Positions 6,928 through 19,744 of a DNA stretch of 39,543 nt are shown here, one piece after another. The stretch lies in contig CACZOU010000082.1 of NCBI GenBank assembly GCA_902782945.1, positions 1-39,543 on the forward strand. The letters run 5' to 3'. The notes under the pieces were generated by a model that saw only the letters and a program-made list of their open reading frames with translations, searched no databases and was not told the DNA's origin. The DNA is from an uncultured Methanobacteriaceae archaeon (GTDB lineage: Archaea > Methanobacteriota > Methanobacteria > Methanobacteriales > Methanobacteriaceae). Numbering within the stretch: position 1 is the stretch's first letter; the number at the start of each line of letters is the position of its first letter. A program made the translations under genes and the position numbers.

Positions 6928-6981
6928 AGGTGATGAGGTTCCACCTATTTAACCGCCAGTGATTACTGGATGATGACTTCT
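6928..6981 (+). promoter_or_regulatory. fluoride riboswitch (crcB motif) aptamer
   Basis: All parts of the fluoride aptamer can be paired by eye. P1 is AGGUG (6928-6932) with CACCU (6942-6946). The second hairpin is CCAGU (6956-6960) with ACUGG (6965-6969). The pseudoknot pairs GAGGU (6935-6939) in the first loop with ACUUC (6976-6980), with one G-U pair. The conserved GAUGAGG and AUGAUG segments match the known Thermotoga petrophila aptamer layout. It sits about 156 bases upstream of a cation/proton antiporter gene, one of the gene classes known to follow this riboswitch. Just downstream a T6 run (6983-6988) and a TTTATT/AATAAA hairpin with AAAGGT in its loop (6986-7003) may be the expression platform. 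Confidence 0.93.
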
Positions 6982-7033
6982 ATTTTTTATTAAAGGTAAT
7001 AAATTGTATTTTGCCTATGATCATCTATTAATC

Positions 7034-7144
7034 ATGGAAAAAAAGGAATCACAATATTTTTTTTATTTGATTTATTTTGTATGCATACTACTTTTATTAT
7101 TCTTTAATTATTTATTAAATAAAAGGAGATTTTTAATTGATTAG
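7034..7144 (+). CDS. possible small membrane leader peptide between riboswitch and antiporter
   Basis: An ORF of 36 codons from ATG 7034, or 46 codons from TTG 7004, encodes a short charged start, one hydrophobic segment of about 20 residues (SQYFFYLIYFVCILLLLFF) and a basic KRR end. Its stop overlaps the TTG start of the antiporter by eight bases. AAAGGT at 6992-6997 lies in front of TTG 7004 in the loop of a small hairpin directly after the fluoride aptamer, so this ORF may be what the riboswitch controls first. No homology is recognised, and AT-rich DNA easily gives hydrophobic ORFs by chance, so confidence is low. Confidence 0.35.
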   Translation: MEKKESQYFFYLIYFVCILLLLFFNYLLNKRRFLID

Positions 7145-8270
7145 TGATATTTATCCTGTAGTACTAGCAGTCCTTATTGTTTTAGCTAGTGTCATTTCAA
7201 TTAAGTGGAGTATTTCCATATCTATTGTTGAAATTATACTTGGTATTATTGCAGGAAATTTAGGATTGTTAGAACCTGAAAGTTGGATGATTTATGTTGC
7301 TAGTATTGGAGGTATGGTATTAACATTCCTTGCTGGTACAGAAGTTAATCCAAAGTTAATGAAAGATAATTTAAAAGAATGTTTAATGATTGGTGTTGCA
7401 TCATTTCTAATATCATTTGTACTCGTATTTATTGTATGTGAATATATGTTATTATGGCCTCTTACATCATCATTACTAGTTGCTACTGCATTATCAGAGA
7501 CTTCTATTGCAATTGTTTATTCCATTATTCTTGATAAAGAGTTATCTGGTAAAAAGATAGGAACAATACTCATGGGATCTACATTTGTTACAAACATTTG
7601 TACGGCATTTGCATTAAGTGCTTTATTCATGAAACCTACCATAGAAACATTAGTATTTGTAATAGCATCTGTAATTATACTTGTATTCTCATATAAATAC
7701 TCAGATATTTTATTTGAAAGTCAAACATTTAGTATGACAAGTAACCAGTTAGAACTTAAATACATATTCCTATTACTTGTATTATTAATATTCTTTGCAA
7801 CTCTTGGTGGTGGACAGGCATTACTTCCAGTATTCATACTAGGAGCTATACTTTCTAAACCATTCAGCCATACCAACAAAAATAATATGCTTAAAAGATT
7901 ACAGACAGTAGCATTTACTGTTATTACACCAATATTTTTCATAGTTAATGGATCAAAAGTATCAATTCCAGTTATACTTGGAGCATTAGGTGTGTTCTTA
8001 TTAATATTTGTAGTACGTCAAATAGGAAAATTTATTGGAGTATATACAATTGTTAAAACAAGTTTAAGTAAGTATCATATGTATATTACAATGGTTATGA
8101 GTACGGGGTTAACCTTTGGATTAGTAGCAGCATCCTATGGACTTAATAATAATATAATTTCATCTCATGTTTATAGTATTCTAACAGGAGTGCTAGTTTT
8201 AAGTGCTATAATTCCAAGTATTATTGGTAATAAATATTTTGCTCCTACTGAAGAAGATTTAAAAGAATAA
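7137..8270 (+). CDS. CPA2-type cation/proton antiporter (Na+/H+ exchanger family)
   Basis: A 377-residue integral membrane protein with about 11-13 helices. It matches the monovalent cation:proton antiporter-2 (KefB/NapA-like) family: EIILGIIAGNLGL near the N-terminus, the helix LTFLAGTEVNPKLMK, and later ALSETSIAIVYSI in place of the usual SPxxA motif. It lacks the C-terminal TrkA-N domain of KefB. It starts at TTG 7137 with a strong site, AAGGAGAT, six or seven bases upstream. The upstream fluoride riboswitch implies that fluoride induces it. Antiporters are known members of the fluoride resistance regulon, but whether this one moves fluoride itself or restores ion balance is unknown. A T-rich stretch follows, facing the convergent PHP gene. 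Confidence 0.88.
   Translation: MISDIYPVVLAVLIVLASVISIKWSISISIVEIILGIIAGNLGLLEPESWMIYVASIGGMVLTFLAGTEVNPKLMKDNLKECLMIGVASFLISFVLVFIVCEYMLLWPLTSSLLVATALSETSIAIVYSIILDKELSGKKIGTILMGSTFVTNICTAFALSALFMKPTIETLVFVIASVIILVFSYKYSDILFESQTFSMTSNQLELKYIFLLLVLLIFFATLGGGQALLPVFILGAILSKPFSHTNKNNMLKRLQTVAFTVITPIFFIVNGSKVSIPVILGALGVFLLIFVVRQIGKFIGVYTIVKTSLSKYHMYITMVMSTGLTFGLVAASYGLNNNIISSHVYSILTGVLVLSAIIPSIIGNKYFAPTEEDLKE

Positions 8271-19601: not shown

Positions 19602-19744
<143 letters not shown>

Follow-up and report, generated by a model that had tools for sequence, protein, structure and literature searches.

The crcB motif of fluoride riboswitches has been known in archaea since 2010 (PMC2864571), and Na+/H+ antiporters are, after the fluoride exporters, the next commonest class of genes associated with it (PMC11139923). 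In bacteria, the fluoride riboswitches of Pseudomonas syringae and Burkholderia pseudomallei are translational and non-terminating (PMC13273304). That archaeal fluoride switches are much less studied, as the original prediction had it, is a fair statement: one source (PMC8241225) describes one archaeal case, the switch of Thermococcus kodakarensis (Speed et al. 2018), which was experimentally determined and is presumably translational. The locus analysed here is likewise archaeal, fluoride-linked and presumably translational, and differs in lying in a methanogen and in the 148 nt that separate its aptamer from the antiporter gene. With the two bacterial switches it shares the non-terminating class, and is likened to them by class rather than by platform sequence. 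Compared with riboswitches of Rfam family RF01734, it has the same consensus, P1, P3, pseudoknot and site upstream of a fluoride-associated gene class, but it carries a long A+T-rich leader and a candidate anti-aptamer strand and has no bacterial-type terminator, as no G+C-rich hairpin followed by a T-run was found in the leader folds.

The window, that is, the whole stretch of 39,543 nt (39.5 kb) analysed here, is part of a 1.7-Mb genome of a Methanobacteriaceae archaeon. We take the genus set used below to represent Methanosphaera; a second species of this genus, G016 (locus L003), shares the long leader. The region upstream of the antiporter contains a genuine fluoride riboswitch aptamer (Table 1); its family and its gene context are both already known, and it is present as a single copy in the genome. 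The covariance-model search that the original prediction had proposed as a check placed it above the Rfam gathering threshold; P1, P3 and the pseudoknot are present, and a gene of a class associated with fluoride resistance follows on the same strand. The prediction that a methanogen carries a complete fluoride riboswitch ahead of an antiporter gene was thus borne out, as was the pairing of both hairpins and the pseudoknot, which is confirmed in the letters and covaries among relatives. In an alignment of 24 related fluoride aptamers, standard pairs occupied 98.6% of cells (91.8% with shuffled partners), reaching 99.1% in P1, and 5 of 12 pairs had changed on both sides; two of these five belong to the pseudoknot, and pairs 1 and 2 of P3 had changed in this way too. 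The pseudoknot of the window, GAGGU/ACUUC, contains one G-U, and the relatives also use GGAGU/ACUCC, GAAGU/ACUUC, GAUGU/ACAUC and GAGGU/ACCUC. Between the window and the second species, 56 of 57 aptamer columns are identical, as against 44% of the remaining leader. Fluoride aptamers occur in 28 of the 152 genomes of the class, and fluoride binding by this one is expected from its sequence.

Table 1 Features of the riboswitch–antiporter region, in window positions
Feature	Positions	Strand	Basis or remark
Fluoride riboswitch aptamer, Rfam RF01734	6920-6989	+	cmscan 51.7 bits, gathering threshold 34, E 1.2e-11
P1 hairpin, AGGUG 6928-6932 / CACCU 6942-6946	6928-6946	+	sequence
Pseudoknot 5′ strand GAGGU	6935-6939	+	partner 6976-6980
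P3 hairpin, CCAGU 6956-6960 / ACUGG 6965-6969	6956-6969	+	sequence
Pseudoknot 3′ strand ACUUC	6976-6980	+	complementary to Shine-Dalgarno-like sequence
T6 run 6983-6988 and hairpin TTTATT 6986-6991 / AATAAA 6998-7003	6983-7003	+	chance-level
Hairpin H1, AGGUAA 6994-6999 with 7011-7016 (UUUGCCU)	6994-7016	+	common to both species
Open leader frame, TTG 7004, inner ATG 7034, stop TAG 7142-7144	7004-7144	+	candidate leader peptide
Candidate anti-aptamer strand Q, AUCAUCUAUUAAUCAUGG	7020-7037	+	pairs with 6956-6975
Antiporter Shine-Dalgarno sequence AGGAG	7124-7128	+	sequence, 8 nt ahead of TTG 7137
Cation/proton antiporter, 377 aa, TTG start	7137-8270	+	Pfam PF00999, E 2.1e-33

The downstream gene encodes a cation/proton antiporter that scores 116.1 bits against PF00999 (cut-off 26.2). 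Its best NCBIfam match is the CPA2 family TIGR00932 (E 1.3e-18), at 67.5 bits, below the curated cut-off of 238.3. A stop codon immediately precedes the TTG start, and relatives have a matching N-terminus. Among 80 antiporter relatives, taken from species genomes on protein sequence alone, about 49 are associated with a match (E ≤ 0.001) to a model made from methanogen aptamers; the aptamer lies 19–278 nt upstream of the antiporter start in the 46 relatives measured, within 60 nt in 29. The bearers include Nitrospinota, Elusimicrobia, Methanoperedens, Methanoregula and many further groups of bacteria and archaea. Since aptamers stand upstream of most of these relatives, the antiporter clade is tied to fluoride generally. 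Pfam detected neither CrcB nor CLC in the genome of the window, and neither was found in a conspecific genome that is 99% complete; the antiporter is therefore a believable fluoride defence gene. Across the 20 genomes of the genus, the antiporter or aptamer is present in 6 and CrcB in 9, with no genome holding CrcB together with either (P = 0.012); at the species level the counts are 5 and 9 of 19 (P = 0.022).

Two other Methanosphaera species hold an orthologous antiporter without any aptamer, and no residual aptamer above about 10 bits was found in them. In these loci (L026, around 1494; L027, minus strand, around 1491), GGGAGG is present but no in-frame ATG, GTG or TTG occurs before the conserved start of the antiporter, and an AUU start codon seems likely from the sequence. 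In another locus (L016, 1619-2346, genome G033), the antiporter behind a tandem aptamer is disrupted by frameshifts close to its start, which may reflect assembly error or decay.

Shine-Dalgarno (SD) accessibility was also compared across the family. In all 19 representative loci, the SD sequence was predicted to be as open or more open once the aptamer strand was removed from competition, and the effect was strong in several short leaders (8.3, 9.7, 8.8 and 4.5 kcal/mol). In most short-leader relatives the antiporter starts 24–41 nt behind the aptamer, and the 3′ pseudoknot strand, which resembles an anti-SD sequence, can pair with the SD region; in many of them, taking this strand away makes the SD more open by several kcal/mol. 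When the aptamer 3′ strands of short leaders were swapped among SD regions, 555 of 5,040 permutations were as good as the native pairing. Because this test is not significant, SD sequestering is supported locus by locus and not as a uniform rule, and we rejected pairing between the aptamer 3′ strand and the SD as a universal mechanism of the family. From the modelled folds, the majority of the related switches appear to act by turning translation on. In Methanothermobacter-like loci (L110-L117), a four-strand relay, ACUCCU / AGGAGGA / UCCUCC / GGAGG, precedes the antiporter start; its strands are, in turn, the aptamer strand, a complement, an anti-SD and the SD. In two further loci (L014 and L017), AGUCAUCAG downstream of the aptamer is pairable with either the aptamer 3′ strand CUGAUGACU or a downstream GAUGACUUUUUUCUU; when not so paired, this latter strand is able to cover the SD GGAGGAG.

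For the window, the original prediction had placed a candidate expression platform directly behind the aptamer, in the T6 run and a TTTATT/AATAAA hairpin whose loop presents AAAGGT (6992-6997). The letters are as described, but the role as a platform is unsupported, because the hairpin has a weak folding energy of −1.4 kcal/mol, is of a kind that chance would produce (about one-third of composition-matched random 30-mers contain such a stem) and is unconserved, being absent from the second species, L003. That species keeps the SD-like AAAGGUA. T6 runs occur 71 times on the plus strand of the 39.5 kb. The original prediction also held that ligand-dependent folding could alter access to a ribosome-binding site or the fate of the transcript; AAAGGT, however, is not the ribosome-binding site of the antiporter, which lies about 130 nt further downstream.

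A better, though unproven, candidate platform in the modelled folds is formed by hairpin H1 and strand Q. H1 uses the AGGUAA strand of the same hairpin region with a different partner; it reads AGGUAAA/UUUACCU in L003, and its folding energies in the two species are −4.9 and −6.1 kcal/mol. In both, H1 is followed by Q (AUCAUC..UAAUCA), the complement of P3 and of the core next to it, so that a possible pairing mutually exclusive with the aptamer is retained in the second species. The predicted duplex has an energy of −18.0 kcal/mol here (P = 0.010, dinucleotide shuffles) and −17.4 kcal/mol in L003 (P = 0.014), two tests that are not independent because the species are related. Pairing of this strength is reached by 1–2% of A+T-rich stretches in the window, and survived random mutation to comparable divergence in 1–5% of trials (P of about 0.02). 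The strand is carried by these two species only, and conservation in its columns (57%) is little above that elsewhere in the leader (44%). In both species, a calculation that leaves out pseudoknot and ligand energy favours the fold with Q over that of the aptamer by about 7 kcal/mol, for an RNA whose composition, 83% A+T, makes folding predictions unreliable. We read Q as a candidate invading strand that fluoride would have to outcompete during transcription.

We therefore suggest, with about even confidence, that the fluoride riboswitch raises expression of a fluoride-stress antiporter, most likely through translation, with Q competing against the aptamer. Without fluoride, Q would invade the aptamer by base-pairing to P3 and the core beside it, and the transcript would be held in a fold that lacks the aptamer and leaves the start region of the antiporter somewhat less open. 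With fluoride, bound as a Mg-fluoride complex, the pseudoknot would close first and block this invasion. We infer the ON direction and translational output from the family-wide folds. Against this reading, the gain at the antiporter SD of the window is predicted to be only 0.2–0.4 kcal/mol, or 0.7–1.3 kcal/mol for the stretch from the SD through the start codon, and the SD-like AAAGGU (6992-6997) is predicted to become less open in the bound state. The signal would then have to cross the 148-nt leader, possibly via the leader frame, whose end falls on the start codon of the antiporter.

This frame, of 46 or 36 codons depending on the start, overlaps the antiporter start at its end, and open frames ending at the antiporter start are found in five of seven long leaders. 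The open-run test, which was devised after the frames had been seen, gave P values of 0.0085 (the window), 0.03, 0.0135, 0.0045 and 0.0185 across these five; their Fisher combination is about 1e-3 to 2e-5, and about 1e-3 when each lineage contributes a single value. By their sequence, the leader frames suggest, as a hypothesis, translational coupling. The aptamer would gate the start of the leader frame, either at TTG 7004 with the SD-like AAAGGU 6992-6997 (SD1) or at ATG 7034 inside the Q helix, and ribosomes finishing at TAG 7142-7144 would restart at TTG 7137. One of the five frames, that of L007, agrees with this in having an SD and an ATG 18 nt behind the aptamer. Two of the seven long leaders lack the frame, however, and that of L006 has no standard start codon. 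A conserved leader peptide was rejected, as the Methanosphaera frames differ and indels shift the frame between the two species. For the window, we regard such gating and restart as a tentative alternative that is on balance doubtful, and we give no greater credence to the broader form, in which the aptamer, rather than acting at the start of the antiporter itself, gates a leader frame coupled to the antiporter in several Methanobacteriaceae lineages and the anti-aptamer strand sets the gate in Methanosphaera.

T-tracts act as terminators in archaea, and both the T6 run and a T8 stretch lie within the leader, so that polymerase might stop at either one without fluoride unless the folded aptamer prevents it. 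Bacterial fluoride switches often work by termination (PMC13273304, PMC2864571). The second species, however, has a T5 only and lacks the T8 stretch, most family members have no T-tract at this place, and T6 runs are frequent in the genome; we consider such attenuation unlikely. Long-range pairing of ACUUCU and the adjoining U-run with the antiporter SD UUAAAUAAAAGGAG in the absence of fluoride would reproduce the layout used by short-leader relatives, and ACUUCUAUUUUUUAUU is able to form a duplex of −5.9 kcal/mol with the SD region. Yet 17 of 18 swapped SD regions pair with the window aptamer as well or better, and the 130-nt spacing makes direct sequestration improbable; we think it quite unlikely to be the mechanism here. 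Finally, the two Methanosphaera species with an orthologous antiporter and no aptamer would be consistent with an aptamer that has decayed and lost its function, but the one in the window has an intact consensus, all its pairs formed and near-identity to the second species within a divergent leader, and decay is accordingly very improbable. The preferred reading remains competition between Q and the aptamer with a translational output.

Other elements were found alongside the main locus. In one related genus, four genomes have an additional fluoride aptamer without the antiporter directly behind it (L013, 1501-1780; L019, 1290-1577, minus strand; L020, 1290-1578, minus strand; L022, 1501-1965). 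Behind this aptamer, three of the four have a conserved SD and ATG-ATC/GTC-TAA mini-frame. An element of about 80 nt, GATTAATGCATGAAAA...AATTTCATGAAACATTAA, is conserved in all four loci; it occurs once per genome in exactly those 4 of 139 genomes and has no Rfam match. By sequence, the additional aptamer and this element may form a fluoride-switched small RNA. Elsewhere in the window, a tRNA match at 19602-19744 on the minus strand is interrupted by 74 inserted nt within its anticodon region and was missed by ARAGORN; it is therefore probably an intron-containing tRNA.

Together, these results place the aptamer, as would be expected, within an established class. The value of the locus lies in providing a concrete and testable model of an archaeal fluoride switch, of which few have been examined, and its antiporter clade, never found alongside CrcB within the genus, shows signs of replacing the usual fluoride exporters.
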